DNA of 64,000 nucleotides from positions 2,724,986 to 2,788,985 of the forward strand of contig NZ_LT745763.1 of assembly GCF_900166595.1 (NCBI RefSeq), given 5' to 3'. The stretch comes from Virgibacillus dokdonensis (GTDB lineage Bacteria > Bacillota > Bacilli > Bacillales > Amphibacillaceae). The translations under genes were made by a program, and so were the position numbers. The notes beneath the pieces were generated by a model that was given only the letters and a program-made list of their open reading frames with translations, was not told where the DNA came from and ran no database searches. How positions within the stretch are numbered: the first letter of the stretch is position 1; each line of letters starts with the position of its first letter. Shown here in pieces: positions 2,941-63,955 of this stretch.

Positions 2941-3027
2941 AGAAAGACTTGGCTTATCTTCAAGTCTTTCTGACGTAAGCTGTAGTTTTTCTTAGACTAT
3001 AAGCCTTAAAACTCTATACTATCCCCT
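2941..3027 (+). repeat. Dispersed intergenic repeat, copy 1
   Basis: Full-length copy between smpB and rnr. The head hairpin is extended here to a perfect 11-bp inverted repeat (AGAAAGACTTG ... CAAGTCTTTCT). The tail reads TTTTTCTTAGACTATAAGCC, TTAAAA and CTATACT, matching the other copies. Confidence 0.7.
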
Positions 3028-3035
3028 CGTAACAC

Positions 3036-3064
3036 AAAACCGCCATCCATAATAGGAAAGCGGC
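3036..3064 (-). terminator. Possible rnr terminator
   Basis: Just after the rnr stop on the minus strand, GCCGC pairs with GCGGT across a ~15-nt loop, followed by TTTTGTGTT. The stem is short, so this is a weak call. Confidence 0.45.
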
Positions 3065-3070
3065 TGTAGA

Positions 3071-5239
3071 TTATTTCTTTATTCGTTTCGCTTTGATTTT
3101 TTTCTTTGGTTTCGTTTCTTCATCGTATACAATGGAAAAATCAACCGTGCGTTCATCAATGTTAACACTTGCTACTTTTACTTGTACTTCTTCGCCAATG
3201 CGGTACACTTTAGCTGTTCTTTCTCCGATCATTGCTTGACTCCGCTGATCATAGTGATAATAATCATCCGTTAAATAGCTAACATGTACCAAGCCTTCTA
3301 CTGTATTCTCTAATTCCACAAATAAGCCAAAATTCGTAATAGAACTAATTACCCCAGTATATTCTTCACCAATTTTATCCTGCATAAATTCTGCCTTTTT
3401 CAAGTCATCTGTTTCTCGTTCAGCGTCGACCGCTCGGCGTTCAGCAGCAGAAGTTTGTCTGGCTATTTCTGGAAGTTGGCCTTTCCACTTCTGCAATGTT
3501 CGCTGATCCATCTTTTTATCAATTAAATAGGTACGAATCAAGCGGTGTACAATTAAATCTGGATAACGACGAATTGGAGAAGTAAAATGTGTATAAAAAG
3601 ATGTCGCTAAACCGAAATGTCCAATACTTTGGGGGTCATATTTTGCTTGTTGCATCGACCGAAGCATTAATTTTGAAACGATCATTTCTTCAGGCTTTCC
3701 TTTTACCTCTTCCAACACCTTTTGAAGTGCTTGTGGATGAATTTCATTATTCGTACCTTTGACCACGTAACCCAGACCCGCTAAAAATTCAAAAAACGTT
3801 TGTAATTTATCAGGATCTGGATCTTGGTGAATACGATGAATAAACGGCACGTCCATCCAATGGAAATGCTCTGCTACCGTTTCATTTGCCGCTAACATAA
3901 ATTCTTCTATCAGTCGCTCTGCAACGGAACGCTCTCGTAACACAACATCCTGTGGCTTTCCATTTTCATCTACTACTACTTTCGCTTCTTTGAAGTCAAA
4001 ATCAATCGCACCTCGATTCATTCGCTTCCTTCGTAAAATAGCAGCTAATGCTTCCATATTTTCAAACATAGGAACAAGCTCTTGATAGCGTTCTTGTAAA
4101 GAACTATCTTTTTCTACCAAAATTTGATTCACATCATGATAGGTCATCCGCTCATTTGTTCGAATAACGCTTGGGAAAATTTCATGTTTTACAACGTTGC
4201 CAGAAGTATCTATTTCCATTTCGCAACCCAATGTCAATCTATCCACTTTAGGATTCAATGAGCAAATTCCGTTAGACAAACGATGTGGAATCATCGGAAT
4301 GACGCGATCAACTAAGTAAACACTAGTACCTCTTTCAAAGGCTTCTTCATCCATAGGACTCCCTTGATCAATATAATGGCTCACATCAGCAATATATACT
4401 CCGAGAAGGTAGTTACCATTGTCTAATTGCTTTACAGAGACAGCATCATCTAAATCTTTTGCATCTGCACCGTCAATGGTTACAATTGTTTCCTCCCGAA
4501 GATCCCTGCGCCCTTCCATTTCTTCTTCAGTAATGGCTTCAGGTGTATTCGCTGCTTGCTCTAACACTTTTTCAGGAAAATCTACTTTAATGCCATGCTT
4601 ATGAATAATGGACATAATATCAATGCCAGGGTCATTTTTATGTCCTAAAATATGAATAATTTCCCCTTCCGCACTTTTCCTTCCTTCTGGATATTTCGTA
4701 ATATGCGCAATTACCTTATGTCCGCTAACAGCGCCATTCGTACTATCCTTAGGGATAAAAATATCATTAGGAATACGCTTATCATCTGCAATAACAAAAC
4801 CAAACGAACGATTATTTTCAAATGTACCGACAACTTGTAATGTCGCTCTTTCTAAGATCCGAATGACAGTTCCTTCCGAGCGATTTCCAGAATCACTTCT
4901 TTTCTCAATGCGGACAAGCACTTTATCTCCGTTCATAGCCGAGCCAAGATCAGAATAATGAATATAAACATCATCGCGTGATTCGTCATCTGGGATTAAA
5001 AAAGCAAACCCTTTGGCATGCATTTGAATTCTACCACGGACAAGGTTCATCTTTTCTGGTAATCCAAATCTGTTTTTTCTTGTTCGTACGAGCTCCCCAG
5101 ATTCCTCTAAAGCATTTAATGATTTGATGAGCTCTTTAAATTCTGTTGCATCTTCAATCTCTAGCGCTTCTTCTATTTCATGGACTGTTAAAGGCTTTGT
5201 ACCATTTTCTTTAAAATATTGTTGAATTTTTTCTTTCAT
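3071..5239 (-). CDS. rnr: Ribonuclease R
   Basis: A 3'-5' exoribonuclease of the RNB family that degrades structured RNA and the mRNAs released by tmRNA. At 722 residues it has the normal length. In order: an N-terminal winged-helix domain, cold-shock domains, the RNB catalytic domain ([16 protein letters not shown] with its metal-binding Asp cluster near residue 265, and [16 protein letters not shown] near 560), an S1 domain ([19 protein letters not shown]) and a lysine-rich tail. Start ATG is preceded by AGAGGG. It lies 51 bp from est and is probably co-transcribed with secG and est. Confidence 0.97.
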
Positions 5240-5290
5240 TGTTTCTTCACCCTCTTTCTATTTATTATTCTCATTTGACTGTTATTATAA

Positions 5291-6037
5291 TCATTGTTCC
5301 CATTTTAATGTTTCGAGAAACTGATAAATATCCTCAAAAACTTGCTCTTTTTCTTTTCCCATTGTAATAACGTGTCCTGACTCTTCATACCATTTGATCG
5401 TTTTATGCTCTGCTTCTACATTTTCATAAATATAGTTTGCACTGTCCGTATTTATCATTTGATCCTTTCTAGCTTGAACGACCATTGTTGGCGTATAAAT
5501 CGTATCTACTTCATTTTTCACTTCAGTAATGAATGCACCTAATTGTTTAAATAGCGGTTTAGAATTTGTTAATAACGTATCTAATTCTTGTTCTATCACA
5601 TGATCATCTTTACGTTCCAGCTGTTTATATTCTTTGGCAAATAGTCGAAATCCTTTTGTTAATTGCGTTTCATTATCAAAAAACATAGGTGAACACATTG
5701 GAATAACAGCCTTTGTTTGTTCTGTGTATGCTAATTTCAAGCCTAGTACCCCACCTAATGATAAGCCAGAAACAGCAATTTCTCTATACCCCAAATCTTT
5801 TAAATGCTGGTATGCTTCTAACACATCCTCCCACCACTCGCCTGGTGTCGATTGAATTAAGTCTTCAGGCGGTAACCCATGCCCTCTGTAGATGGGTGCA
5901 TGACTAGTATACCCGCGTTTTTCTAAATATCGCCCTAACATACGGACGTCTGCAGAATGTCCAGTAAATCCATGTAATAATAATACGGCACGTGGTCCTG
6001 CTTCAAAAGTAAAGGGTTGAGGTTGTTTTATTTTCAT
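5291..6037 (-). CDS. est: Carboxylesterase, Est30/YvaK type
   Basis: An alpha/beta hydrolase of 248 residues that hydrolyses short- to medium-chain esters; the natural substrate is unknown. The triad is visible: Ser93 in GLSLGG, Asp192 in ARKDQM and His222 in ESGHVIT. The oxyanion-hole HGFTG motif is at residues 22-26. Spacing matches the Geobacillus Est30 family. Start ATG has an AAGGAG box 7-8 nt upstream. Lying between secG and rnr is the conserved Bacillaceae arrangement (yvaK). Confidence 0.93.
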   Translation of the reverse strand: MKIKQPQPFTFEAGPRAVLLLHGFTGHSADVRMLGRYLEKRGYTSHAPIYRGHGLPPEDLIQSTPGEWWEDVLEAYQHLKDLGYREIAVSGLSLGGVLGLKLAYTEQTKAVIPMCSPMFFDNETQLTKGFRLFAKEYKQLERKDDHVIEQELDTLLTNSKPLFKQLGAFITEVKNEVDTIYTPTMVVQARKDQMINTDSANYIYENVEAEHKTIKWYEESGHVITMGKEKEQVFEDIYQFLETLKWEQ

Positions 6038-6221: not shown

Positions 6222-6282
6222 AAAAAGCTTGACTATCTTTAAAGTCCTTATGGCGATAGGATATCGTCGTTTTTCTTAAGAT
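6222..6282 (+). repeat. Dispersed intergenic repeat, copy 2 (head)
   Basis: Head module: GCTTGACTATC, then ATGGCGATAGGATATCGTCG, then TTTTTCTTA. The second-hairpin arm GGCGATAG is conserved. The tail does not follow directly but a tail-like piece lies ~300 bp downstream. Confidence 0.6.
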
Positions 6283-6584
6283 AAGAAACAACCATGGCTT
6301 GCCAAGACCGCGAGCCGCCATCTTTCATGAAAAAACTTTTGCTTTATAATGTTTAGATGCTTAAAATACTGTCAAATAAATGAGTTAGATAAGTGTAAAT
6401 AGAGTTGTTTTTTCATACAAACGTATTAAATGAGGTGCTTTGGATAACGAAATATCCAGATAGCCAAGTCTGGCTCCATCTCCCAGCAACGAGGCGACTT
6501 TACTCCATTGCACTAAGCTAAGTCATCATCGGTTCGACGTTAAGAGGAAAGCCGACTAAAAACAGGTGTCCCTCGCCTTTGTTC

Positions 6585-6640
6585 TACTATAGATCCTAAA
6601 ACGTTTAATACTTTCCTGTAGTGCAATGAAAAGAACGAAC
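6585..6640 (+). repeat. Dispersed intergenic repeat, tail piece
   Basis: TTCTACTATAGATCCTAAAA followed by TTTAATACTTTCCTGTAGTG resembles the tail of the copy at 39592 (TTATACTATAAACC ... CTTTCCTAAGTGCAA). It is likely the separated tail of the copy at 6222. Confidence 0.45.
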
Positions 6641-14405: not shown

Positions 14406-14436
14406 CACATGCAAATGATACTTTCTTGTCGACATG

Positions 14437-14520
14437 TTCCCTACGCTGGTTTTACCCAGATCAGGTTCTAAGAGTCCGTATCTTAAGGATACAATCTCAA
14501 CCAGCAACACTGGTCCCCCT
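14437..14520 (-). promoter_or_regulatory. TPP riboswitch aptamer (THI box)
   Basis: On the minus strand the conserved THI-box elements appear in order: AGGGGGACC, the GCTGGTTGAGA core, a variable hairpin, GGACTCTTAGAACCTGATCT and GGGTAAAACCAGCGTAGGGAA. It controls the thiYXZ operon by binding thiamine pyrophosphate. Confidence 0.96.
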
Positions 14521-14536
14521 ACAACGCTTGTATGCT

Positions 14537-28240: not shown

Positions 28241-28599
28241 TCCCTTAAAGCTATCAAATAGCCTTATATCATGTTACCGATACTTTTTCTTTTATATATG
28301 AATTTTCAATATATTATACTGCTATTCTAACAGATCATGAATGACATTCTCTTTATAGATGTTTGGCTGGTTCAGCCATACCTGACCTTCATGTAGTAAC
28401 ACAGCGGAAAGAAGGAAAAACTTGACTTACCAACAAGTCTATATAACGAAAATCATTGTATCTTTTTATACTATAGCCATAGAATCTTAAGCATTTTCTG
28501 AAAGCTAATTTGGGATAGCATGAAAAGCTTCCCAATCCTTCACTACACAGTAATACATAACCTCATCGTTTATCTTAAAGTTGCGGGTGAAAAGCCAAT
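28241..28599. other. Gene-free stretch downstream of eno
   Basis: No gene seen. It contains one dispersed repeat copy (28413-28500) and AT-rich sequence. A possible promoter for the decayed genes lies near 28310 (TATTATACT on the plus strand) but is not convincing. Confidence 0.4.
28413..28500 (+). repeat. Dispersed intergenic repeat, copy 3
   Basis: Head AAAACTTGACTTACC then AACAAGTCTATATAACG; tail TTTTTATACTATAGCC and CTTAAGCATTTTCTG. The first hairpin (ACTTG/CAAGT) is kept; the second arm is degraded. Confidence 0.6.
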
Positions 28600-36120: not shown

Positions 36121-36200
36121 TACAACCAAAACAAGTGATTTGGTGAAATTTATTTAGAATCTTTCATTAGTAATGGTTCACAAAATGAATATGAAGTCAG

Positions 36201-36846
36201 TCAGTTATTTACAAACAAATGATTTCTCTCATAAAAAGATTTTAGAATTTTCGCTAATTCTTTTGAAGCTTGTTCATTTACTTCATGTCCAGCATTTGTT
36301 ACCATTTGAAGTTCTGATTTTGGAATATGTTCAGCTAAACTTTTTTGATGCTTTTTTATTTATATGATCTTTCTCACCACAAACAACCATGGTATAGCAC
36401 ATAATATCACTTAATTTTTTACTGAAATTTAGCGTAGTCATTGTATTTGTTAATTGAATAAAGTCCTTCTTTTCAAACCCTATATTCTCAAAAGAAGATT
36501 TCGGAACAAATTTAAATACCATATTTTGCAATTTAAACAACATTTTAGGAATATTATATTGCTCACCTATTAATACTAATGAGGCTACCTTTTTGGGATA
36601 ATCGATTGCATAATTTAAAGCTAATACTCCGCCTAATGAAAGCCCACAAAGGTTTAACGGTTCGTCCAAATCTTTACAGTACGTGGTGAAACTAGCATAC
36701 AAATTTTGATACGTAACCTCTTTATGCTGAAGCATCGCAGAAAGGTTTGGACTATATATATTACGATATTCGCATAAATAAGCAATCGTTTCCTGCCAAC
36801 TGGATGCACTTTGCCCAAGCCCATGAATAAAAACAACATGCCCCAT
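36201..36846 (-). pseudogene. Alpha/beta hydrolase with frameshift in an A6 run
   Basis: The open frame (about 171 codons from ATG 36846) holds the fold start VVFIHGLGQSASSW, nucleophile elbow CGLSLGGVLALNY and acid residue VVCGEKDHINKKASKK. It then hits a stop just after a run of six A near 36337. Removing one A restores SLAEHIPKSELQMVTNAGHE and on to VNN with a stop at 36201, supplying the catalytic His. Restored length is ~215 residues. It is either a real single-base inactivation or a sequencing error. TTG at 36852 is an alternative start; ATG 36846 has GAGG at 10 nt. Confidence 0.78.
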
Positions 36847-37003
36847 ATTCAATAACCTCTCCCTATTATTTAAAAAAACTGCAGGATAATAACTGATAAG
36901 CTCTTCGTATAGTATGTTTAAGTATTTTATGTTTATATCAAATACTTGGATGAATTATTGAAAAAAGCACATAAAGCACTAACAAAAAAATAATGCGCTT
37001 ATC

Positions 37004-37252
37004 TCATCTTTTATTACCTACATATTGATCTAAAAAATTTCTTAGCGTCTCCCAATTTAGTTGGGATGCGTCCAATATTGCATTATTTACTTTTACACAA
37101 GGAATTAATAACTGATATTTCTCTAACCAAAGATCATTCGTATAAATATCACATTCTCGAACGTTAAAATCGTATTCATCTTGAAAAAATTCCAACATAA
37201 GTTTTGCTTCATCACATAAAAGACAAGCCTTTTTTGTATAAAAATGGATCAT
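37004..37252 (-). CDS. Glutaredoxin-like thiol protein
   Basis: An 82-residue thioredoxin-fold protein (DUF836/glutaredoxin-like) beginning MIHFYTKKACLLCDEAK, with a CLLC redox motif at 10-13 and the cis-proline region in LLIPCVKVN. Probably a small cytosolic redox protein. An upstream ATG at 37267, inside the sigL end, would add five residues; the ribosome site is ambiguous because AAGGA touches that ATG. It follows sigL closely and is likely co-transcribed with it. Confidence 0.78.
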   Translation of the reverse strand: MIHFYTKKACLLCDEAKLMLEFFQDEYDFNVRECDIYTNDLWLEKYQLLIPCVKVNNAILDASQLNWETLRNFLDQYVGNKR

Positions 37253-37260
37253 TACCAAAA

Positions 37261-38547
37261 TTAACATTCCTTTCTTTTCGTCGATGATGGTATTTGTAGT
37301 TGCTCTCTATACTTCGTGACTGTACGTCTCGCAATTTGAATCGTATATTTTTCAGCTATCAATTTTCGTAACTTCTCATCAGACAGTGGCTTACACTTAT
37401 CTTCCTGCGCTATAAGGTCAGCGATCATATTCTTAATTGCAAGTGCAGCAGCTTTGGTGCCGTTGCTTTGCTTTACACCAGATTGCAAAAAGAAATTCAA
37501 TGGTAAAATGCCATTTGGTGTTTGCACATATTTATGAGCAATAGCCCTACTTATAGTGGAAACGTGTAATGCCAATTCGTCTGCAATATCTTTTAATGTT
37601 AGTGGTTGCATCATATGTGTGCCATGTTCAAAATACAGAGATTGCTTTTCAAGCATACATTGAATAACACGTTCTAATGTATCACCTCGATAAGTAATAG
37701 CTTTTTTCACCATTTCTATTTGTGTCTGTTTCTCTTTAATATATTTCTCCGCCTCTTTTCCAATCCCTCTCATATGAAAATACGACTCATTTAAAGTGAT
37801 TTTTGGCGTGCTCCACGAATAAAAAGATAATTGCCATTTCTCTTTTTCTTTATAAATAGAAGCTTCTGGAATAATGTAATGATCTATTTTCGTATCAAGT
37901 AAGTGTCCTGGTTTGGGGTGACATGCTTTAATTTGTGCAAATAAACCCTTTACGTATGTTTCACTTTTACCGTATTCATTGGCTACAGCTTCCACATCTT
38001 CTTCCGCTACCCATTGTAAATGGTTTTCTAATAAATCATGTACAAGTGGTTTATCCACAGCAGAAATTTTTAATTGTAATATAATACATTCGCTTAAGGT
38101 TCTGGCACCGATTCCAGCTGGCTCTAGTGATTGGATAAGTTTTACTGCTTGCTCTACCTGCTCTAATGTCGAGTGACACTGCTTTGCCCAAAGTTGTAAC
38201 TCAACATCCAAGTAACCGTTTTCATTTATGGAATCAATACCATATAACACAATAGGTCGCATTTTTTCAGGTATATGTAATGTATATAACTGTTTTTTCA
38301 AAAGGTCGTACATACTTAACTTACTTGCATTGATTTCTCCAGGTCCTATAACATCATCCGTAGATGAATGATATGGAAGAGCGGCGTCATCATAGTTTAT
38401 TTCTTCAATGAGCGGGTTTTCTTTTTCCAATTCTTTTAAATACTCCACCAGTTCTGTATTGGAAAATTGTAATATTTGAATCGATTGCATTAAGGATTGG
38501 TTCATCTTCCACTGTAAGACTTGTTCATTAACAAGTTGTAACTTCAT
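37261..38547 (-). CDS. sigL: RNA polymerase sigma-54 factor
   Basis: A 428-residue sigma-54. Region I is the glutamine-rich N-terminus (QMKMNQSLMQSIQILQFSN-like, residues ~10-30), then the core-binding region, the HTH (LKDIADELALHVSTISRAI near 320) and the C-terminal RpoN box ARRTVTKYREQL near 405. It reads genes with -24/-12 promoters activated by enhancer proteins. I found no convincing sigma-54 promoter or activator gene in this window. GAGGAGG precedes the ATG. Family identity is clear. Confidence 0.96.
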   Translation of the reverse strand: MKLQLVNEQVLQWKMNQSLMQSIQILQFSNTELVEYLKELEKENPLIEEINYDDAALPYHSSTDDVIGPGEINASKLSMYDLLKKQLYTLHIPEKMRPIVLYGIDSINENGYLDVELQLWAKQCHSTLEQVEQAVKLIQSLEPAGIGARTLSECIILQLKISAVDKPLVHDLLENHLQWVAEEDVEAVANEYGKSETYVKGLFAQIKACHPKPGHLLDTKIDHYIIPEASIYKEKEKWQLSFYSWSTPKITLNESYFHMRGIGKEAEKYIKEKQTQIEMVKKAITYRGDTLERVIQCMLEKQSLYFEHGTHMMQPLTLKDIADELALHVSTISRAIAHKYVQTPNGILPLNFFLQSGVKQSNGTKAAALAIKNMIADLIAQEDKCKPLSDEKLRKLIAEKYTIQIARRTVTKYREQLQIPSSTKRKEC

Positions 38548-38806
38548 GATAATCCCCCTCCTCCTTTATTGTGCCACAAAAACAAAAATCCATCTAGAGA
38601 AGACCATATTATTCGGTTCAAGGCTTATAACTTATGTGGTAATTTTTCTTTTACTATCGTGAGTCAACATTTTATACTTTTATATAGTATAACAAAGCAT
38701 ATTTTATAGAGTTGAATACTTCTTTATCTATACATCAAAAGTATTAGCGTGTTATTACACCATCTCATATGCTATAATCAGCTTACACATAAGGAGGGCT
38801 ATGTAC

Positions 38807-39214
38807 ATGATAGAAGTATTTACAGACGGTGCATCCTATGGTAATCCAGGGCCAAGTGGTGCAGGTGTTTATATCAAGCATGAACAGCAACATTATAGAT
38901 ACAGCTTTTTTTTAGGGGATTTTTCCAACCACGAAGCGGAATTTCAGGCAGTTATTAAAGCTTTAATGATTTGCAAAGATAAATTTCCAACTGACATTTT
39001 ATCTTTTCGCTCTGACTCTAGAATTGTTGTTGATACAATTGAGAAAAATTACTCCAAAAACAAACTGTTCATCCCATTATTACACCAAATAAGTGAGCAC
39101 GCCTCTGATTTTCCGCACTTTTTTATTAAATGGATTCCTGAAAAACAAAATAGGCAAGCAGACAAATTAGCTAGACAAGCTATTCAGCACCAAACAAATA
39201 GGCAGTATAGTTGA
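38807..39214 (+). CDS. RNase HI-like protein (YpdQ/YpeP type)
   Basis: A 135-residue RNase H-fold protein. MIEVFTDGASYGNPGPSGAG carries the first catalytic Asp, NHEAEFQAVIKAL the Glu, FRSDSRIVVDTI the second Asp, and RQADKLARQAI the last acidic site. It may degrade RNA in RNA-DNA hybrids, though B. subtilis relatives lack measurable activity. ATG 38807 is chosen because AAGGAGG lies ~9 nt upstream; the earlier ATG at 38801 is too close to it. Monocistronic. Confidence 0.88.
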   Translation: MIEVFTDGASYGNPGPSGAGVYIKHEQQHYRYSFFLGDFSNHEAEFQAVIKALMICKDKFPTDILSFRSDSRIVVDTIEKNYSKNKLFIPLLHQISEHASDFPHFFIKWIPEKQNRQADKLARQAIQHQTNRQYS

Positions 39215-39255
39215 GTTTTTTAAAGTTATTCTTGTTTAGACAAGGAGTGTTTACA

Positions 39256-39480
39256 TTGGACCCTGGCGAAAATTTGTTTTAGTTGAAAGTATAAGGATAA
39301 GGGAAGAAAAGCATGGATTTACTATTATTAGTATGTCCCCTGCTTTAACGCTTATCGGAAGCGGAAGAAATGCAGTAGTATGTAAAATCCGATCGACAAT
39401 AAAGTAATTAAAGTATTTCCATAGATTATGAGCATATAGCACACTTGGTAGGCGAAAGCATGTTAGAAAAACTAGACTAA
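39256..39480 (+). pseudogene. Protein-kinase-like gene, N-terminal relic
   Basis: Plus-strand frames read GPWRKFVLVESIRIREEKHG, SPALTLIGSGRNAVVCKI (a glycine-loop-like motif) and, after a stop, KVIKVF and DYEHIAHLVGESMLEKLD in a shifted frame. This looks like the start of a small Ser/Thr kinase-like protein such as YrzF, interrupted by stops and truncated. The minus ORF at 39251-39487 is only its shadow. The family is tentative. Confidence 0.4.
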
Positions 39481-39502
39481 TTGCCAATTCTTTGTACAGA
39501 AA

Positions 39503-39556
39503 GCCGTATGCTGCTTATACGATAAACTTTAAATTTCTATACCTTCCCTGTAAAAC
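39503..39556 (+). repeat. Dispersed intergenic repeat, tail-only copy
   Basis: GCCGTATGCTGCTTATACGA then TAAACTTTAAATTTCTATAC and CTTCCCTG matches the tail of the copy at 63856 (GCCGTCGTTTTGCTTATACT ...). The head is absent; it lies ~35 bp before a complete copy. Confidence 0.6.
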
Positions 39557-39591
39557 AGCTCCATTCTGCTAATCAAACCATTGAAAAAACA

Positions 39592-39690
39592 TTAGAAAAA
39601 CTTGGCATGTCGCCAGGTCTTATGCGAAAGCCTTTGTTTTTCTTATACTATAAACCAAAAAATATGATGCTTTCCTAAGTGCAAGAAATT
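39592..39690 (+). repeat. Dispersed intergenic repeat, copy 5
   Basis: Full copy: GAAAAACTTGGCATGTCGCC and AGGTCTTATGCGAAAGCC, then GTTTTTCTTATACTATAAAC and GCTTTCCTAAGTGCAAG. The first stem here is ACTTGGC with GCCAGGT, including one G-T pair. Confidence 0.72.
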
Positions 39691-39789
39691 CAAATCGCTC
39701 TATTAGCGGCGAACAACTCCACCACTTCCCACCCTTGTGGGTTGCTTGAAGAAGTTGCGGAAGTACGTTAAAAATAACTTTCAACAGGC

Positions 39790-39826
39790 ACAGCTACATC
39801 GTTTTATAGCGGGGTAGCTTTTTATT
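39790..39826 (+). terminator. Terminator, plus strand
   Basis: GCTAC and GTAGC pair across ~16 nt and are followed by TTTTTATTTTTATTTT. It faces the end of aroD and would stop plus-strand transcripts from the relic region. Confidence 0.65.
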
Positions 39827-39827
39827 T

Positions 39828-40592
39828 TTATTTTGAATAACGATGGATCGTTTGTAGAATATACCTTAATTCAGCAGCTGTTATTTGTCCTGGTGCAGAA
39901 GCTTGTATCGCCGAGCCAAAAGAAGCAGCAGAACCTACAACTTCTCCTCCAACCCTACTTAATATACCTAATGGCCCCATAGCTATGGTAATGAACGGCT
40001 TTTGGGCATAGGTTGATTTCATTTTTGCCGCAACTTGTAATAGACGCAAAACATCTTCTTCATTTTGCGGCATTACCGCTAACTTTACAATATCTGCTCG
40101 GGTCTCTTGCATGGCTATTAGACGTGCTAGCATATCTTTATTAGCCGGAGTGGTTTGAAAATCATGATTAGACATCAGAACAATTACATTATTTTGTCGC
40201 GCAATTTGTACCAGTCTTTCTCGAATCGTTTGTTCTATGTATAGTTCAACATCAATGACGTCAATAAATCCTGACTGTATAACTTGACTTAACAATTCTT
40301 CATAGTAGTTAAGCGTTACTTCTTTCCTCCCCCCTTCTTTATAAGTACGAAAGGTGTAAAGCAATGGAATATCATCGATCAACTTTCTAATTTCTGCTAG
40401 CAAACGGAGAACTTCTTCTATATTAGTGACATGTAAGAAAGCATCCGCACGCCATTCTATCATATCAGGTTTTTCCTGTTTGGCTTCGCTTAATTCATGG
40501 TTAATCTCTTGCAATGTCTCTCCCATTATTGGAATGATAATCTTTGGCATTCCTTTTCCTATATGTATATCTTTAATTTTTACCCTCTTCAC
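39828..40592 (-). CDS. aroD: 3-Dehydroquinate dehydratase, type I
   Basis: Third step of the shikimate pathway, forming 3-dehydroshikimate through a Schiff base. 254 residues, TIM barrel. Visible motifs: EWRADAF near 45-51, MSNHDFQTTP near 140 (catalytic His), ADIVKLAVMPQNEEDV near 164 (Schiff-base Lys) and ITIAMGPLGILSRV near 203. GTG start with GAGGGGG ~11 nt upstream. Divergent from aroK, with an IS element inserted between them. Confidence 0.95.
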   Translation of the reverse strand: MKRVKIKDIHIGKGMPKIIIPIMGETLQEINHELSEAKQEKPDMIEWRADAFLHVTNIEEVLRLLAEIRKLIDDIPLLYTFRTYKEGGRKEVTLNYYEELLSQVIQSGFIDVIDVELYIEQTIRERLVQIARQNNVIVLMSNHDFQTTPANKDMLARLIAMQETRADIVKLAVMPQNEEDVLRLLQVAAKMKSTYAQKPFITIAMGPLGILSRVGGEVVGSAASFGSAIQASAPGQITAAELRYILQTIHRYSK

Positions 40593-40836
40593 ACCTTATG
40601 CCCCCTCGTATAATATATTTAGGCATTACTATTTCAACCAATTATTACTAACTTTATGTTTTTCTGCTTGAAATTTTATACGTACTGAGCCTCCGCACTC
40701 GCAAAAGCGCCAAGCTCATGCTTTTTCCGTTGTAGTCACCACCTTTGTTCAAGCGACTAATTACCTGCTCATCATTCATAGACAAATGCAAATCATCTGT
40801 TTTTACATGTCGTCGCTTCTATTAAATATTTATTAT

Positions 40837-42239
40837 CACTAGCATTGCATTAATTAAACCTGATGATTCAAAATACTGAAAATGTTTAATAATTACGTGT
40901 TCATGATACAAAAAAATCCTTTACAATGGAAGTACAGGTGGTTCCTGTCCAAATCCAAAAGTAAAGGATAATCCGTATGGACAAGAATACACTAAAATCA
41001 TCATTTGGTAAATGGGTTTCACCTATAAATACGAAAAAACTATTTGAACAAGTAGAAGAAAATAAACAAGATTACTACACAAAAAAGCTAACAACTGCAG
41101 GGTATATAAAGCTCATGTTACTTGCCCAACTGCAAGGATTCGAGAGCTTGGAAGAAATGAGCGATGCCCTAATAGATGATGGACTTCAGAAAGCACTGGG
41201 GTTTGAATCGATTAGTACATCTCAGCTATCAAGGAAGAATAATGAAATGAATCCAATGATCCTTTCCCATTTATTCTTGGACCTTGTTTACAAAATAAAA
41301 GGTATCCAATCTAAAAACGGGAAATACATGCCATTGAAAATCATTGATTCTAGCACGCTTCCATTAAACTTAACGAATCATAAGTGGGCAAAGTTCCGTA
41401 AAACAAAAGCAGGAGTTAAGCTACATTTACGACTTATATTTATGAATAAAGATACCGTCTATCCTGAAAAAGCAGTGATTACAACAGCCAAAGAACATGA
41501 CAGAAATCAACTGGAAGTTCTCGTAGACGACAAAGAAGCCATGTATGTGTTTGACCGTGGATACGTTGATTATGAACGATTTGATCGAATGACAGATGAA
41601 GGCTATTTTTTCGTATCAAGACTGAAGAAAAACGCCATCACTCGTGAAGTAGAATCATTTTCTATACCTAAAGATGCTACGGTTTTATCCGACAAGATGG
41701 TTTACATCGGTTCGACGCAAAATCGTACAGAGAATGTATTCCGCCTACTTGAAGTAGTGGATACAAAGGGAAACATTCTACGATTAATTACTAACCGTTT
41801 CGATCTAAATTCCGAAGAGATTAGTGAAATTTACCGTCAACGGTGGGCCATAGAGCTATTTTTCAAATGGCTCAAACAGCATGTAGAGATCAAACACTTT
41901 TATGGCATGAGCGAAACTGCCATTCAAAATCAAATTTTCCTTGCACTTATTGCTTACTGTTTACATGTACTTATCCAGTTAGAGATGAGGAGTAAGAAGT
42001 CCTTACTCCGAATTAGCCGCTGGTTAAATAAAGCGCTGTGGAAACCTGCGTACATCTGGATTCGCAGATTTGACGATAGATCTATTCCGTAAATACATAC
42101 AGTGTCGCTGTTGCTAATAGTTTAATTGTATAATTTTTCCAAATGGACAGACCACCTTTGTTTAGCCTTTGTCTTTTTGGCAAAAAATCCTGCAAAGATG
42201 CTTACTGAATTTTCAAACCATATTTATGCAATGCTAGTG
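40837..42239 (+). mobile_element. Complete IS4-family insertion sequence (IS4Bsu1-like), 1403 bp
   Basis: Terminal inverted repeats CACTAGCATTGCAT (40837-40850) and its complement ATGCAATGCTAGTG (42226-42239) bound one transposase gene and are flanked by 9-bp duplications. Size and transposase resemble the IS4Bsu1 kind of element in Bacillus; that name is by recollection. A second copy is cut by the left window edge. Confidence 0.93.
40977..42092 (+). CDS. IS4-family transposase
   Basis: A full-length 371-residue DDE transposase. First catalytic Asp in PLKIIDSSTLPLN (~125), second in AMYVFDRGYVDYERF (~200), and Glu in the Y-(2)-R-(3)-E-(6)-K signature YRQRWAIELFFKWLKQH (~298-314). The gene begins at ATG 40977, ~140 bp inside the left end. 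No frameshift, so the element may be active. It is almost identical to the partial copy at 1-533. Confidence 0.96.
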   Translation: MDKNTLKSSFGKWVSPINTKKLFEQVEENKQDYYTKKLTTAGYIKLMLLAQLQGFESLEEMSDALIDDGLQKALGFESISTSQLSRKNNEMNPMILSHLFLDLVYKIKGIQSKNGKYMPLKIIDSSTLPLNLTNHKWAKFRKTKAGVKLHLRLIFMNKDTVYPEKAVITTAKEHDRNQLEVLVDDKEAMYVFDRGYVDYERFDRMTDEGYFFVSRLKKNAITREVESFSIPKDATVLSDKMVYIGSTQNRTENVFRLLEVVDTKGNILRLITNRFDLNSEEISEIYRQRWAIELFFKWLKQHVEIKHFYGMSETAIQNQIFLALIAYCLHVLIQLEMRSKKSLLRISRWLNKALWKPAYIWIRRFDDRSIP

Positions 42240-42248
42240 ATTTATTAT

Positions 42249-42622
42249 AAGTCTATTAGACAGGATTGCCAACAAAAATATGATTTTCCTTGTACAAGTT
42301 GCTAGTTTTTCGCTTATAATAAATAAAATGTAACTTCCTGTTTGGATTTTTGTTAAAAGTAATTTGCATGCGCCATTATAAAATAAAGTGATCTTATTAC
42401 CTGTTATTTTCTAATGAAAGATATCAAAAGTTCCTAGATGTAAGGTACTGTTAGACCCCCTCCAAGAATTAGGAGATGAATACTTGGACAGGATAAAAGC
42501 AGGTAAAATGTACCCGCAAAGGACATTTTGATCATATTAATAACCAAATGAGAGAGGAATGAAATCCTCTTTAATTAGAAGATTCGCTTTATTTGTAAGT
42601 CAAAACAGAAAGAGGTAACCCA
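42249..42622. other. Stretch between the IS and aroK
   Basis: No complete gene. Around 42449-42528 a short plus frame (LLDPLQELGDEYLDRIKAGK, then a few residues and a stop) reads like the end of a protein, perhaps a gene remnant; I cannot name it. The aroK ribosome site lies at the right end. Confidence 0.35.
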
Positions 42623-43180
42623 ATGTATAATGAAATTCCTATACGTCAAAAAAGCATTGTTTTAATTGGATTTATGGGAGTTGGTAAAACTTCCATCGGT
42701 AAATCAGTAGCTGCAAAACTGTACAGAGATTTTATTGATGCTGATCAGGTCATCGAAGACATATTTAAAATGCCAACCACAGATATATTTAAAACATATG
42801 GCGAACCGTTTTTCAGAAAAAAAGAAAAAGAGATCATTCATGGTTTATGTGAGCAAAAATTAAAAATTATCTCATTAGGTGGAGGTGCTTTTCTACAAGA
42901 GGATATTAGAAGCATTTGCTTAGAAAAGTGTATTGTTTTCTACCTTGATTTGTCTTGGGATTCATGGAAGGATAGAATTAGTTTACTCATTGACAGTAGA
43001 CCTGTATTACAAGGAAAAAGCTTAGCAGAAATCAAGCAATTATTCCATGAACGTAAAGTCATCTATCAAACGCATCATTCAACGGTGCAGACGGATTTTC
43101 TCATGATAGAAGAAGTAGCAGATTATATTGTTAAAGCTTTAAAAACAGCCTGGGATATTTACGAACCGCAAGCGAAATAG
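42623..43180 (+). CDS. aroK: Shikimate kinase
   Basis: Phosphorylates shikimate at the 3-hydroxyl using ATP. 185 residues. P-loop GFMGVGKTSIGK at 16-27, substrate-binding DADQVIED near 39-46, FRKKEKEII near 64 and LGGGAFLQ near 86 (glycine-rich shikimate site), with the lid residue in DSRPVLQG near 133. AAGAGGTAA precedes the ATG. It stands alone, divergent from aroD across the IS. Confidence 0.94.
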   Translation: MYNEIPIRQKSIVLIGFMGVGKTSIGKSVAAKLYRDFIDADQVIEDIFKMPTTDIFKTYGEPFFRKKEKEIIHGLCEQKLKIISLGGGAFLQEDIRSICLEKCIVFYLDLSWDSWKDRISLLIDSRPVLQGKSLAEIKQLFHERKVIYQTHHSTVQTDFLMIEEVADYIVKALKTAWDIYEPQAK

Positions 43181-43256
43181 GTAGGATGTACACGAGTGAT
43201 ATTTATATTAATATACGACGGATACCTTCAAGAGCTGATAAATGCTTCATCATATT

Positions 43257-43305
43257 TGGAAAAATTTAGCTATCGCCAAGCTTTTCTGGCGATAGCAGTA
43301 GTTAT
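43257..43305 (+). repeat. Dispersed intergenic repeat, copy 6 (head)
   Basis: GCTATCGCCAAGC then TTTTCTGGCGATAGC. Here the second hairpin (GCTATCGCCA with TGGCGATAGC, 10 bp) is perfect while the first is weak (only the right half CCAAG remains). It follows aroK and the tail is not obvious. Confidence 0.65.
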
Positions 43306-43382
43306 TACATAAATATAGCGCAAGTTTGTCATACACACAAGGGTGGCGCGCCAATTAGAAACACACACCAACCATGATACTA

Positions 43383-43694
43383 TTACGTCCATATGTCCAA
43401 CACTTGCCCCCGCTTAATTGCTTTGCCTGATTGCAAATAAAGACACTCATTTGTGATCTGCTTTACCTTCCCTTTGCTAGTTAAAAAATCCCGACCATTA
43501 AAGTACTTAATTTCAATACAGATACCCTGACGAACGGCAGCTTGTAATTGGACGTCCAACTCCTCCAGCTTTTGTTCGTCCAAAATAGGCATTTCTTTGC
43601 GCTCAAGCTTTTCCCACATATCCTGAAGTACATCCACATGCTCTGGTAACATCATAGAGGTCCATTTTATCGTCCCTCGATCATATATCTTCAT
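43383..43694 (-). CDS. YolD-like protein
   Basis: A 103-residue protein of the YolD-like family (DRGTIKWTSMMLPEHVDVLQ near the start, ILDEQKLEELDVQLQAAV in the middle, and a beta-rich C-terminal half). Relatives often sit beside UV-damage DNA polymerases of the UvrX type; none is seen here. ATG 43694 is chosen over GTG 43703 because AAGGGA has proper spacing. It follows the gene at 43696-43911 directly. Function unknown. Confidence 0.75.
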   Translation of the reverse strand: MKIYDRGTIKWTSMMLPEHVDVLQDMWEKLERKEMPILDEQKLEELDVQLQAAVRQGICIEIKYFNGRDFLTSKGKVKQITNECLYLQSGKAIKRGQVLDIWT

Positions 43695-43695
43695 C

Positions 43696-43911
43696 TTATG
43701 CACTTCCCTTTCTTTTCACACGATCACAAGAAAGGATATAGCTAAATTTAAACCTGCGAACTTCTTTACGATAAAAACAAAATGCTATAAATGAGTCTTC
43801 ATATATCTCTATCACACGTATGAATCGTTGTGTTACTCGATTATTTTGATCCATATAAAATAGAACCAGTTTTTGCTTGTTCTCCTTTGACCACTGTAAC
43901 ATGGAGTTCAT
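43696..43911 (-). CDS. Small protein of unknown function upstream of yolD-like gene
   Basis: A 71-residue basic, beta-rich protein (MNSMLQWSKENKQKLVLFYM, ending DRVKRKGSA). AGGGGG lies 8-9 nt before the ATG at 43911; a longer frame to 43953 is less likely. The pattern of short strands with YMDQNNRVTQRFIRVIEI resembles the WYL-like small partner often found with YolD proteins, but this is only an impression. It is probably co-transcribed with the YolD-like gene. Confidence 0.6.
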   Translation of the reverse strand: MNSMLQWSKENKQKLVLFYMDQNNRVTQRFIRVIEIYEDSFIAFCFYRKEVRRFKFSYILSCDRVKRKGSA

Positions 43912-43997
43912 CGTATAGCCCCCTAAAGAACATTTGTTCTTATTATACCACAAAAACCGAACGTGTATACGTGTTTTTTAGTCATTTCAAAAGAAAT

Positions 43998-44249
43998 CTA
44001 CCCTTGTGATTCTGTTTCTTGCCGATCTTTCGTTAATGCTACCAAGGAAAGTGCTTCTCGAACAATGGAATTAATTTTTTCGTGAACAAGAGCTTCTCCA
44101 TATACTTGTTTAGCTGCTTCAATTTGCTCCACAACATCATCAGTAAAATGAATGAGGGGATCATCCGCTTCCATATTGTTATAAAGCTCAATAAAAGTAT
44201 CTAACGCTTTATCAAATTGTTTACTCTCTTCTTCTGAAGCCTTCATCAT
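43998..44249 (-). CDS. Hypothetical small acidic protein
   Basis: An 83-residue acidic, mainly helical protein (ESKQFDKALDTFIELYNNME, then DDVVEQIEAAKQVYGEAL). GGAAGGTG precedes the double ATG. I do not recognise the family. It lies alone between pxpC and the YolD pair, all on the minus strand. Confidence 0.6.
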   Translation of the reverse strand: MMKASEEESKQFDKALDTFIELYNNMEADDPLIHFTDDVVEQIEAAKQVYGEALVHEKINSIVREALSLVALTKDRQETESQG

Positions 44250-47096: not shown

Positions 47097-48326
47097 ATGA
47101 CTGCAAAGAAAATACATTCTCAACTTGAGACAAAAAAAGTGAAAAAGAAATCTAACAGAAGCATTCTTCTTGGAGCAGCTTTTTTAATGGCGACTTCGTC
47201 AGTAGGCCCAGGATTTTTAACACAAACGACTGTATTTACACAGCAGTTAGCCGCAAGTTTTGCCTTTGTCATATTCGTTTCCTTATTATTAGATGTGTTT
47301 GCACAGCTAAATATTTGGAGGATTATTGCAGTAACCGAGCTACGAGGTCAAGAAATTGCTAATAAAGTTCTCCCTGGGCTTGGTATTATTTTAGCAATTC
47401 TCATCGTGTTGGGAGGTCTTGCTTTTAATATAGGAAACGTTGCTGGAACAGGCCTAGGTTTAAATGCTATGCTCGGTTTAAACCCCATTTATGGAGCAAT
47501 AATAAGTGCCATTTTTGCTATCTTGATTTTCACCATAAAAGAGGCCAGTAAAGCAATGGATAAAGTGGTACAAGTTGCTGGCTTTATTATGATATTATTA
47601 ATGCTCTATGTAGCTTTTAAAACCTCTCCACCTGTTGGGGAAGCGATGATAAACACGGTAAAGCCAGAAAAAATTAGCATGTATGCCATCATTACTTTAG
47701 TTGGAGGAACTGTTGGTGGTTACATCACCTTTGCAGGTGGACATCGTTTGTTAGATGCTGGAATAAAAGGAGAAAAAAATTTATCCTACGTAACAAAAAG
47801 TTCTATAACTGGTATCGTTGTTACAGGTGTAATGCGTGTGGCCTTATTCTTAGCAGTTCTCGGTGTTATCTCACAAGGACTAAGCATAGACCCTAGCAAT
47901 CCCCCTGCTTCCGTTTTTCAACTAGCCGTTGGTGATATAGGGTATCGACTGTTCGGCGTAATTATGTGGGCAGCAGCTATAACTTCTATAGTTGGAGCAG
48001 CCTATACCTCTGTTTCATTTATTCGTTCTTTTAGTCCAGCGATTGAAAAATATCATAATTGGATTACCATTTTATTTATTATCATTTCTACAGCTACATT
48101 TGCTTTCATTGGCAAACCTGTTCAGATGCTTATATTAGTAGGGGCTTTAAATGCCCTTATCTTGCCACTTGCTTTAGGAACCCTATTGGTGGCTGCAAAT
48201 AAGAAAAAAATTGTTGGTTCGTATAAACATCCACTTTGGTTAACAATAACTGGAGGAATTGTAGTTGTGTTGATGGGTTACTTAGGCATTCTAACAATGG
48301 TAGAGCAAATTCCTTTGTTTTTTTAG
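47097..48326 (+). CDS. NRAMP-related membrane transporter (YcsG type)
   Basis: A 409-residue protein with about 11 membrane helices, related to the NRAMP superfamily. Helix 1 carries SSVGPGFLTQTT in place of the metal-binding DPGN motif, and the MPH motif of helix 6 is also absent (GGHRLLDAG lies there), so manganese transport is unlikely. Cotranscription with pxpA, as for B. subtilis ycsG, suggests uptake of 5-oxoproline or a related compound. This is inference. GAAAGGAAA precedes the ATG. Confidence 0.82.
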   Translation: MTAKKIHSQLETKKVKKKSNRSILLGAAFLMATSSVGPGFLTQTTVFTQQLAASFAFVIFVSLLLDVFAQLNIWRIIAVTELRGQEIANKVLPGLGIILAILIVLGGLAFNIGNVAGTGLGLNAMLGLNPIYGAIISAIFAILIFTIKEASKAMDKVVQVAGFIMILLMLYVAFKTSPPVGEAMINTVKPEKISMYAIITLVGGTVGGYITFAGGHRLLDAGIKGEKNLSYVTKSSITGIVVTGVMRVALFLAVLGVISQGLSIDPSNPPASVFQLAVGDIGYRLFGVIMWAAAITSIVGAAYTSVSFIRSFSPAIEKYHNWITILFIIISTATFAFIGKPVQMLILVGALNALILPLALGTLLVAANKKKIVGSYKHPLWLTITGGIVVVLMGYLGILTMVEQIPLFF

Positions 48327-48362
48327 AAAAACTTGGTTAGCGCCAATCTTTATAGATCGAGG
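48323..48362 (+). repeat. Dispersed intergenic repeat, copy 7 (head)
   Basis: GAAAAACTTGGTTAGCGCC then AATCTTTATAGATCG, immediately after the transporter stop. Only the head is recognisable. Confidence 0.55.
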
Positions 48363-54788: not shown

Positions 54789-54860
54789 TAGCAAAAACTT
54801 GTCTATCACCCGAGTATTTTGGAAAAATCACTGTCGTTTTTATTATACTTTGCGTCTAAA
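54789..54860 (+). repeat. Dispersed intergenic repeat, copy 10
   Basis: AAAAACTTGTCTATCACCCG then AGTATTTTGG, CTGTCGTTTTTATTATACTT and a poor tail. Located between yvcI and the trxB terminator. It is a diverged copy. Confidence 0.5.
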
Positions 54861-54864
54861 AACA

Positions 54865-59041: not shown

Positions 59042-59080
59042 TTTAGAAAAACTTGGCTAGATGTATACGATAAACCAAGT
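59042..59080 (+). repeat. Dispersed intergenic repeat, copy 8 (hybrid head and tail)
   Basis: TTTAGAAAAACTTGGCTAG followed quickly by ATACGATAAACCAAGTG, as if the middle of the repeat were deleted. It lies within the glpD leader, on the strand opposite to glpD transcription. Confidence 0.5.
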
Positions 59081-59081
59081 G

Positions 59082-59140
59082 TAAAAAAAGAAAGCCACAA
59101 AACAAACTAATATAATATATATTAGTTGCTTTGCGGCTTC
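59082..59140 (-). terminator. glpD leader terminator (GlpP antitermination target)
   Basis: On the minus strand a long imperfect stem (AAGCCGCAAAGCAACTAATA with TATTAGTTTGTTTTGTGGCTT) ends in TTTTTTTA, ~175 nt before glpD. In B. subtilis GlpP with glycerol 3-phosphate acts on such a leader to allow read-through. It also ends the upstream hprK-glpP message. Confidence 0.82.
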
Positions 59141-60287: not shown

Positions 60288-60290
60288 GTT

Positions 60291-61863: not shown

Positions 61864-61950
61864 TCTCTTCCTCCTCGCATATTTAGCTAGTATACTTTAT
61901 AGTAAACCAAACGTATTTATGGCATAGTACGTGCGTGCTACTAATTAACC

Positions 61951-62835
61951 TTATTTCTTCTTCTTTTTCTTCTTCTTTTTTCCAACTAATTTGGTTTTCT
62001 TTGTTTGCGATTGTCGTTTCATGATATCTAAATAGCGAACGTGTAAAGTTTTACGACGATAAATAATGAACACAAGCGCAACCACTATAATCAAAACAGA
62101 GATGACTTGCGCTTGACGCAATTCACCGAATACATATAGACTGTCCGTGCGCATATCTTCAATAAAGAAGCGTCCTACAGAATACATGATGGCATAACTT
62201 AAAAACAACTCGCCACGAAGCGGGTTAAACCTTCTAAACAAAAGCAACAATGCAAAAACCAGCAAATTCCACACAGATTCATAGAGAAATGTTGGGTGAT
62301 ACATAACGCCATCAATACACATTTGATTCATAATAAAATCAGGCAAATATTGATGGAAGCTTTCATATGTAGATGCTGAAATAGGTCCACCATGAGCTTC
62401 TTGATTCATGAAATTACCCCAGCGTCCAATAGCTTGACCTAAAATAAGACTTGGCGCTGCAATATCAGCTAATTGCCAAAAAGATACACGCTTCACTCGT
62501 GCATATATAATAGCAGTCAGAACAGAACCGATAAGTGCACCATGGATAGCAATGCCACCTTCCCAAATAGCAAAAACATCCGTCCAGCTTCCACCAGCAT
62601 ATTGATCCCATTCAAAAATAACATAGTACATTCTCGCTGAAATAATGGCTATAGGGATCGCAAAAACCACTAAATCAACCATGATATCTTTTTTCATCCC
62701 TAAACGGCTGGCTTCACGATTTGCTAATAAAAGCGCTAAAAAGGCTCCAGCAGCAATAATAACTCCGTACCAATAAATTGGAAAAGTACCGATTTGTAAA
62801 AAAACTCTATCTAACGGTTCTGCTGAACAGCTCAT
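61951..62835 (-). CDS. lgt: Prolipoprotein diacylglyceryl transferase
   Basis: Membrane enzyme that attaches diacylglycerol to the lipobox Cys of lipoproteins such as the ThiY protein above. 294 residues, seven membrane helices. [18 protein letters not shown] near 21, [11 protein letters not shown] near 97 (essential His), and the signature [19 protein letters not shown] near 136-154 (Arg and Asn). The C-terminus ends in a run of ten lysines (after VGK), an unusual cytoplasmic tail. AGGAGG precedes the ATG; 13 nt from hprK. Confidence 0.95.
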
Positions 62836-62848
62836 TCATTCATCCTCC

Positions 62849-63784
62849 TTACAAGTGATCCTCTGTCTCTTGATCAATCATACTCGTTAATCGCTCTGAA
62901 AACTCTTCAGCAGCATTAACACCCATGCGTTTCAAACGAAAATTCATCGCAGCAACTTCGATAATAACTGCGAGGTTCCTTCCTGGGCGAACAGGTATCG
63001 TTGCTTTTGGTAATTCCACATCCATAATCTTCATCTTGTCTTCATCCAAACCAAGGCGATCATATTGCTTATGTTGATCCCAATTCTCCAAATTAATGAT
63101 TAAAGAGATCTTTTTAAAGTTTCGAACTGATCCAGCTCCAAATAATGTCATGACATTAATAATTCCTAATCCTCGTATTTCCAATAAATGTTCAATTAAA
63201 GGAGGGGAATTTCCAATTAAGGTATCATAATCTTCCTGTCTTATCTCCACACTATCATCTGCAACTAACCGATGTCCTCTTTTAACAAGTTCCAAAGCCG
63301 TTTCACTTTTCCCTACGCCACTTTGCCCCATAATTAATACACCTACTCCATAGACATCAACTAAAACGCCATGAATAGCTGTGAATGGAGCAAATTTGGC
63401 CTCTAAAAAGTTGGTTAGTCTACTAATAACTCGCGTTGTTTTTTGCTTTGAATGGAGAATTGGCACGCCTGATTCATTAGCAGCATCCATCAAGACTTGA
63501 GGGATTTCCATGTTTCTTGTGACAACTATCCCAGGAGTAATATCTGTACATAACTTGTCAACACGATGGGCTTTTTCTTCATCATTTAATTCCAAGAAAT
63601 ATGCCATTTCTGTTCTACCTATTAACTGAAGTCTTTCCTTAGGATAGTATTTGAAGTAACCTGTCATTTCTATCCCAGGTCTAGAAATATCTCCAGTTGT
63701 TATCTCTCTAAACAAACCATCTTTTCCTGCTTTTAATGTTAAATTAAAATTATCCAGTAAATCCTTCGTACGAACTGTTGACAT
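62849..63784 (-). CDS. hprK: HPr kinase/phosphorylase
   Basis: Bifunctional enzyme that phosphorylates Ser46 of HPr and Crh in response to fructose bisphosphate and ATP, and reverses this with phosphate. 311 residues from ATG 63784. Walker A GQSGVGKS at 153-160, [10 protein letters not shown] near 202 (HprK signature) and an N-terminal domain with [18 protein letters not shown] near 111-128. AAGGAGG lies ~11 nt upstream. It begins the lgt-yvoD-ppaX-yvoF-glpP operon and is the hub of catabolite repression here. Confidence 0.97.
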
Positions 63785-63855
63785 TGTTTCTATTTCCTCC
63801 TTGTAGTCAAACGGACACATGCTGTAAAATAACCATTTTTATACTTAAGTGCTTA

Positions 63856-63955
63856 TTAGAGAAACTTGGCTATCGTCAAGTATTTATGGCGATAAAGCGC
63901 CGTCGTTTTGCTTATACTTTAACCTTCAAAAATTTATACTTTGGCATGCTGTTGC
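63856..63955 (+). repeat. Dispersed intergenic repeat, copy 9
   Basis: Full copy: GAGAAACTTGGCTATCGTC and AAGTATTTATGGCGATAAAG, then GCCGTCGTTTTGCTTATACT and TTAACC, AAAAATTTATACTTTGG. Located upstream of hprK. Confidence 0.72.

Follow-up and report, generated by a model that had tools for sequence, protein, structure and literature searches.

Results

Copies of the repeat in the window

The window analyzed here is a 64,000-nucleotide (nt) stretch of the 4.6-Mb Virgibacillus dokdonensis genome (G000), positions 2724986-2788985 of C15, the main contig of an assembly in 15 contigs. Between its genes lie scattered copies of a short repeat, the element of this report, which is about 92 bp long and runs from TTAG to CTATAGTG. 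A preliminary description, made from the letters of the window, had listed ten full or partial copies and two tail-only pieces. We searched for the element with a profile, R1, that uses sequence only and assumes no structure; it was built from 14 copies, and the six that come from the window match it by construction. At E<=0.01, R1 matches the window 10 times, always on the plus strand, with E values from 4.3e-22 to 0.0097; these matches comprise nine of the ten listed copies and one of the two tail pieces (39503). Genome-wide, there are at least 155 R1 matches, at least 137 of them on C15. These results establish the dispersed intergenic repeat as real. The short head motif is weak evidence alone (four window matches against 1.17 expected, with four reached in 5 of 100 shuffles); certainty comes from the full-length profile and the genome-wide copies.

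The best copy of the window occupies 63856-63950 (75.8 bits, E 4.3e-22; this and all following copies are on the plus strand). That at 2939-3027 (71.5 bits, E 9.4e-21) lies between an open reading frame (ORF) at 2329-2793 and an rnr-like gene (3071-5239), and is found in V. chiguensis too. A pair of copies follow each other shortly at 39463-39549 (34.0 bits, E 4.6e-9) and 39592-39678 (67.3 bits, E 1.9e-19); the former, previously taken for a tail-only piece, is a decayed full-length copy that spans model positions 1-88. The other tail piece is real: its tail motif, read in sequence at 6586-6623, abuts a reversed copy of a different repeat (the B-unit, described below). Further copies are found at 36035-36119 (56.0 bits, E 6.3e-16) and at 43257-43318 (43.3 bits, E 5.8e-12), where the second hairpin is perfect (43269-43296) and the tail is lost. 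Only the head half is present at 6222-6281 (35.7 bits, E 1.4e-9), and a weak match at 48323-48355 (13.7 bits, E 0.0097) covers the head only. The copies at 28415-28496 (27.5 bits, E 4.9e-7) and 54793-54863 (22.6 bits, E 1.7e-5) are decayed; past the latter, there is an A-run and then a ACACAGAT...ATCTGTGT hairpin. The tenth listed copy, at 59042-59087, can be seen by eye as a head and a tail joined by an internal deletion, although it falls below the profile threshold; a terminator-like hairpin comes next after it.

Ends and alternative hairpins of the element

Across 35 copies, conservation sets in sharply at TTAG. Toward the 3' end, it extends to CTATAGTG, continues into an A-rich stretch, and is then lost. 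Terminal inverted repeats are absent: neither of the ends, TTAGAAAA and CTATAGTG, is an inverted copy of the other. Some copies stand in exact head-to-tail tandem, with TATAGTG joined directly to TTAG, as in genome G006 (C9:5443-5534 and 5535-5627).

Palindromes are located near both ends. The head contains H1 (ACTTGGC/GCCAAGT, 7 bp) and, competing for the same bases, a hairpin of about 20 bp that consists of H2 (TCGCCA/TGGCGA with GGCTT/AAGCC) enclosed by H3 (AGAAAAACT/AGTTTTTCT). The tail has the stem H4 (ACTATA/TATAGT). Thus, the two mutually exclusive hairpins of the preliminary description were correctly recognized, although what it took for the second is the inner part of a longer hairpin, with outer arms that had been overlooked. 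With DNA parameters, the long hairpin of the V. proomii-type consensus head has a predicted stability of -17.4 kcal/mol and the H1 region -6.8 kcal/mol; as RNA, the consensus H1 region reaches -11.4 kcal/mol. The predicted plus-strand fold of the best window copy has H1 (ACTTGGC/GTCAAGT, 63864-63881; H1 region -3.5 kcal/mol, DNA parameters) and not the overlapping H2 core (TATCGTCA/TGGCGATA, 63871-63894), which carries one mismatch. Read on its minus strand, the element has the shape of a hairpin followed by a T-run.

Covariation within the family was assessed on 121 distinct rows of a copy set (A5), nearly all from Virgibacillus, against shuffles. The signal is weak: double changes are in slight excess for H1 (9; shuffle maximum 8) and for the H2 core (11; maximum 9), with none for H3 (5; maximum 6) or an inner extension (5; shuffle mean 5.6). 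The argument for the hairpins therefore rests on change across genera. G013, a complete chromosome from a different genus, shows a joint change from A/T/T to T/A/A at positions 9, 38, and 66. The partner of position 9 is 38 in H1 and 66 in H3, so the joint change indicates that both alternative hairpins were kept. A strict search for this pattern over the loci examined yielded 28 copies (18 T/A/A, 8 A/T/T, and 2 A/C/T), a pattern that misses most copies, and single A5 rows break one of the pairs; the 18 T/A/A copies represent one evolutionary event, not 18. This triple covariation supports the existence of both competing hairpins. H4 also covaries between genera, as ACTTTA/TAAAGT in G013 and Thalassobacillus and as ACTGAT/ATCAGT in a single G025 copy and a single G030 copy.

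Orientation follows replication

The uniform orientation of the copies, noted in the preliminary description, does hold throughout the window, and reflects the chromosome arm on which the window lies. On C15, copies are mostly on the minus strand below about 2.1 Mb and on the plus strand above it, and the GC skew changes sign at the same place. We set the arms by the GC skew of the sampled loci alone. Among the matches listed, 120 of 137 in G000, 107 of 122 in G004, and 54 of 66 in G013 (82-88%) lie opposite to the leading-strand sense; the G013 count is partly circular, as its arm limits were drawn from the same strand and skew pattern, and it is not above a 75% bias (p 0.13). On an 894-kb contig of G006, 35 of the 37 matches listed are on the minus strand. 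On the right arm, the element's bottom strand coincides with the plus strand of the chromosome, which there is the lagging-strand template.

To relate the copies to their neighboring genes, ORFs were called by a simple program around the 30 best G004 copies and around those 83 of the 90 best G000 copies that lie on C15; 111 of 113 gaps were classified. A further 20 G004 sites, chosen partly to include exceptions, are not among the 111. Replication is followed by 58 of 63 copies in gaps between tandem genes on the leading strand and by 12 of 13 where the tandem genes are lagging (Fisher p=1), as well as by all 12 copies in divergent gaps and 19 of 23 in convergent ones. We conclude that the orientation of the element follows replication independently of gene direction, strongly in G000 and less clearly in G004; the motif is strand-oriented along the chromosome whatever the flanking genes do, as had been proposed.

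A one-sided target

The 161 copies with intact ends show almost no signal on their 5' side. The 3' side is rich in A, with counts of 140 at +3, 158 at +4, 142 at +6, 150 at +7, and 140 at +8. In the bottom-strand reading, this gives TTTNTTN | CACTATAGG. We folded the target side of 106 copies with RNA parameters, after removing most, though not quite all, copies flanked by B-units. The 37 nt lying past the T-tract have a mean of -8.2 kcal/mol (z -1.93; 55% at -6 or lower), as opposed to -2.5 kcal/mol (z -0.02; 10% at -6 or lower) on the opposite side of the same copies. Folds of -8 or lower accompany 51% of 65 copies with an A5 run versus 18% of 348 non-coding T6 tracts from the same loci (p 1.6e-8). 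The target is thus a one-sided T-tract that, as a tendency seen in about half of the copies, lies behind a terminator-like hairpin on the element's bottom strand. The earlier statement that these are "not ordinary terminators" needs qualification, since a link to terminators exists, both in the minus-strand shape of the element and in its target.

Empty sites and age

Eight sites were aligned between genomes G004 and G007, whose identity at the compared locus is about 93%. At 4044872, G004 has a 91-bp element where G007 has CACAACATAA running uninterrupted into TAAAC. At 4068648, a 93-bp element lies exactly between the CTTGAACA and GAACAAAGGCGC that are contiguous in G007; a second repeat behind this element is present in both genomes. 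Neither clean empty site has a target duplication. The six remaining sites, three in the same region and three in a second one, also differ in the element, with rearrangement preventing a reading. The sharp 5' end, the defined 3' end, and the empty sites bear out the proposal of a mobilized non-autonomous element; of the two signs sought in orthologous gaps, presence/absence was found, and target duplication was not. The family is also old: of 100 G000 sites tried against V. chiguensis, 14 different ones (15 alignments) could be compared with both flanks within a single stretch, and all 14 sites retain the element wholly or in part (seven alignments were inspected).

Abundance and distribution

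The R1 scan of both strands revealed many copies in a non-random orientation, where scarcity or random orientation would have counted against the preliminary description. At E<=0.001, 33 of 61 genomes, including G000, have a match. Six of eight Virgibacillus genomes contain at least 65 each, whereas G003 (inferred V. salexigens) has 0 and G005 has 1; G002 and G006 (inferred V. proomii) have at least 150 each. Other genera and families have 0 to 63 per genome, with 28 in G030. In G000, copies are present at every stage of decay.

The window's rnr protein is 98% identical to that of V. chiguensis. At the same threshold, 9 of 80 named rnr loci have a match: V. proomii, V. chiguensis, Thalassobacillus devorans (two records), "Roseburia sp. 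1XD42-34", Gracilibacillus sp., V. litoralis, Salirhabdus euzebyi, and, marginally, V. subterraneus. The "Roseburia" record (L054) has a Virgibacillus-like rnr, 93% identical to that of the window, and is probably misnamed.

Plasmids and phages gave no match to a consensus query. None of the covariance models of Rfam matched at the gathering score, and a permissive search gave only sub-threshold matches or none. The literature that was covered, which mostly excludes subscription papers, holds no description of the repeat that we could find; the bcr repeats of Bacillus cereus were not compared by sequence. As far as the Rfam and literature searches reach, therefore, this is not a known family.

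Candidate mobilizing enzymes

The transposase domain Y1_Tnp (PF01797) of IS200-type insertion sequences (ISs) has 13 matches at nine loci in G000, and occurs in seven of eight further genomes; in seven of the nine G000 loci, the gene strand is on the lagging-strand template. A linked Y1 parent was sought in G000 and eight other genomes by running R1 on the loci and comparing IS ends; no shared ends were found. An R1 match about 140 nt before a Y1 match at L013 (13.7 bits) was considered as a linked left end, but is flank, being absent from four sister IS copies. Near two long Y1 genes of G013 (L337 and L342), R1 has no match. A long parent with the head and tail split by a gene was also sought: the collected loci gave three pairs, two without an ORF and one made of two separate window copies. 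Seven tail-only G013 loci, read as possible traces of a parent, proved to be nested insertion, decay, or other sequence, and no parent was seen.

One IS200-type family could be delimited from five copies in four genomes (L013, L322, L323, L329, and L344), which have a common left end near ATGGTCTTAGAAAACCCC and different upstream flanks. In four of the five, the 37 nt before a T-rich stretch at the left flank form a hairpin of -9.7 to -23.4 kcal/mol; the fifth is weak (-3.6). The right end, where intact, is a hairpin plus TTTTGATTT. This family and the element share the same plan with different end sequences.

Group II introns are the second candidate. Matches to a maturase domain, PF08388, occur in 7 of 11 genomes. 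All nine 5' junctions seen begin with GTGCGCC behind T-rich stretches, and a hairpin precedes eight of them by eye; we provisionally assign these introns to class IIC by site and start rather than by model typing. C15 encodes 466-residue group II ORFs at 577802, 766730, 1061448, 1207067, 2014996, 3317911, 3635688, and 4179629, all of which except 2014996 obey the arm rule of the element's bottom strand; where compared, the G000 introns are more than 99% alike. At L422 (G013 418000-424000), a group II intron adjoins a broken element copy, and the bottom-strand end ...GGACAAGCCAAGATTTTCTAA lies in the intron's 3' flank.

The B-unit and other features

In 52 of the 161 intact-end copies, GGAA or GGTA comes next. 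Inspection by eye shows a larger repeat, the B-unit, following in 48 of these 52 and not in the other four. The B-unit (GGAACAAAGGCGC...) measures about 200-440 nt to its TTTATACTTT tail and is rich in inverted repeats. It often abuts the 92-bp element, often ends in the same tail motif, and has similar targets. The window's decayed, reversed B-unit (6415-6566, minus strand) was identified by blastn to that of L140 (78% over 153 nt, E 8e-31), which spans 1593-1890; B-units also occur at many G004 loci, with four in tandem in L154. The B-unit, considered as a possible HEARO RNA, matches no Rfam family. Nested inside B-units at L141, L150, and L224 is a third module (GTGAACCTTC...GAAGTGGGAGTCTACAACGCC), which may be IS605-like, judging by its look.

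The window also contains a transposase-like ORF (40977-42092 and 1-533), which recurs at 19 other near-full places in the genome (92-100% identity) and three partial ones, and, on the minus strand, a tmRNA (1858-2221) and a thiamine pyrophosphate (TPP) riboswitch (14421-14530).

Discussion

The element has defined ends, inserted without duplication at two sites, is oriented by replication, and has a one-sided target. The explanation that we prefer, with a probability of roughly 70%, is that it is a non-autonomous mobile family of about 92 bp, whose bottom strand is moved as single-stranded DNA at the replication fork by a trans-acting enzyme of the IS200/IS605 type. The bottom strand would leave and enter the lagging-strand template during passage of the fork, and the mover would be a Y1 enzyme of the "peel-and-paste" type; members of IS200/IS605 are described as favoring the lagging-strand template and taking on the orientation of replication (PMC5371812). 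In favor of such an enzyme also count the local IS200-type family, built on the same plan, and the seven of nine G000 Y1 loci whose gene strand is on the lagging-strand template. The head may fold either as the local H1 or as the longer H2+H3. H4 closes a loop whose conserved GAAAG (bottom strand) could base-pair with the T-tract. Since the bottom strand of the element again ends in a hairpin plus TTTTTCTAA, each insertion would offer a new target, which would explain the tandem copies.

Several observations weigh against this explanation. A strong hairpin is missing from the target side of about half of the copies. Only two of the eight sites aligned between G004 and G007 have clean junctions. 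When G004 is taken alone with its exception-sampled sites, replication is followed in only two of five tandem-lagging and three of five divergent gaps. The presence of Y1 does not track copy number: copy-rich G006 (75% complete) has two small fragments and G002 two partial matches. Finally, R1 has five matches at E<=0.1 over 33 PF01797 loci, and no gene with the element's ends was found there, in a search that did not include TnpB-only elements; the ends of the local IS200-type family differ in sequence from those of the element.

The group II introns raise an alternative that we consider unlikely: a mini-retroelement whose bottom strand is an RNA with an intrinsic-terminator 3' end, placed behind terminator hairpins via the lagging strand by a group IIC ribonucleoprotein (RNP) or its reverse transcriptase. 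The introns of the same genomes do sit behind T-tracts, eight of nine with a hairpin, and seven of eight follow the element's arm rule. Published work places bacterial-C introns directly behind rho-independent terminators and on the lagging strand (PMC8919778), and describes a IIC RNP that binds a DNA stem-loop target and IIC proteins that use lagging strands at forks (PMC10190682). However, at 92 nt the element is too short for a ribozyme, has no GTGCG start, and has no Rfam group II match; PF08388 was not found in G002 and G030, yet they have at least 150 and 28 R1 matches, respectively. Somewhat less likely still, in our estimate, is a specific form of this idea, in which the element would be a minimal group IIC hitch-hiker: a 92-nt RNA with its own terminator and a GAAAG guide in the H4 loop, copied behind lagging-strand terminator hairpins, with the H1/H2 switch choosing between a terminated, mobile RNA and a silent long hairpin. 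Of the two machines, we favor the IS200/IS605 type as the mobilizer.

The hairpin and T-run could instead have a function in place. A terminator or attenuator family, in which H1 plus TTTTTC on the minus strand ends transcripts, H2 is an antiterminator, and the copies are kept for this role, seems to us improbable. H1 with its T-run has the shape of a terminator (-11.4 kcal/mol for the H1 region as consensus RNA), many copies are 3' of genes, and a simple scan flags two window copies on the minus strand; the scan adds little, since it finds four terminator-like sites at 36000-44000 versus 4.6 in shuffles. By contrast, copies occur in divergent gaps, where all 12 follow replication, and run against gene direction in 12 of the 13 tandem-lagging gaps, copies often adjoin hairpins that are already terminator-like, and the element is missing at sister-species sites. 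A protein-bound replication or segregation motif, its orientation kept by selection, would account for the orientation rule in three genomes of two genera. We hold it to be very improbable, as a single genus ranges from 0 (G003) or 1 (G005) match to at least 150 (G002 and G006), G000 copies are in all stages of decay, and the target preference accounts for their placement.

If the element is a non-autonomous family moved in trans, as we prefer, these Bacillaceae carry in it a naturally occurring, countable trace of single-stranded DNA on the lagging strand. In one tiny unit, it combines an orientation set by the fork, insertion directed to terminator-like hairpins, and a pair of rival hairpins backed by triple covariation, and it accounts for part of the intergenic clutter of Virgibacillus. 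Further, it makes testable which machinery mobilizes tiny palindromic repeats, since both candidates occupy its niche in the same genomes.

Comparison with known systems

Miniature inverted-repeat transposable elements can be set aside, for the element has neither terminal inverted repeats nor, at the two clean empty sites, target duplication. It fits the structure of IS200/IS605 non-autonomous elements such as the palindrome-associated transposable elements (PATEs) of Haloquadratum, which are IS605-related: PATEs, in the portion of their description consulted (PMC3119063), likewise have no terminal inverted repeats, palindromes near their ends, no target duplication, and too little length for a gene. 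They, too, have other mobile repeats within or beside them, and a 52-bp form is described. The palindromes of PATEs resemble those of IS605-type transposons, whereas no such parent was found for the present element over 33 Y1 loci and one local IS200-type family, with TnpB-only elements not searched. Terminator targeting and the second, competing hairpin are features of our element that do not appear in that portion of the PATE account.

Small intergenic palindromic mobile repeats of high copy number are also known as repetitive extragenic palindromes (REPs) and REPINs with their RAYT transposases (PMC3116915, PMC3733652). Our element is longer than REPs, lacks a conserved GTAG/CGTC tag, and occurs as single units in one orientation rather than as inverted pairs; GTAG or GTCG is present in some subfamilies inside the long hairpin only, where G004 has CTTTG and G013 has CTTAG. 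With group IIC introns (PMC8919778, PMC10190682), the element shares insertion behind terminator hairpins, a replication-linked strand, and a precise junction, but it has no ribozyme, maturase, or GTGYG/GTGCG start and is about 20-fold smaller than the 1.9-kb intron. From IS200/IS605 it differs in end sequence and in having no tnpA inside or beside it. It is like them (PMC5371812; local copies) in its lagging-template orientation, single-strand polarity, and one-sided target; the local IS200-type copies, too, lie behind hairpins with T-tracts and end in a hairpin plus a T-rich stretch.

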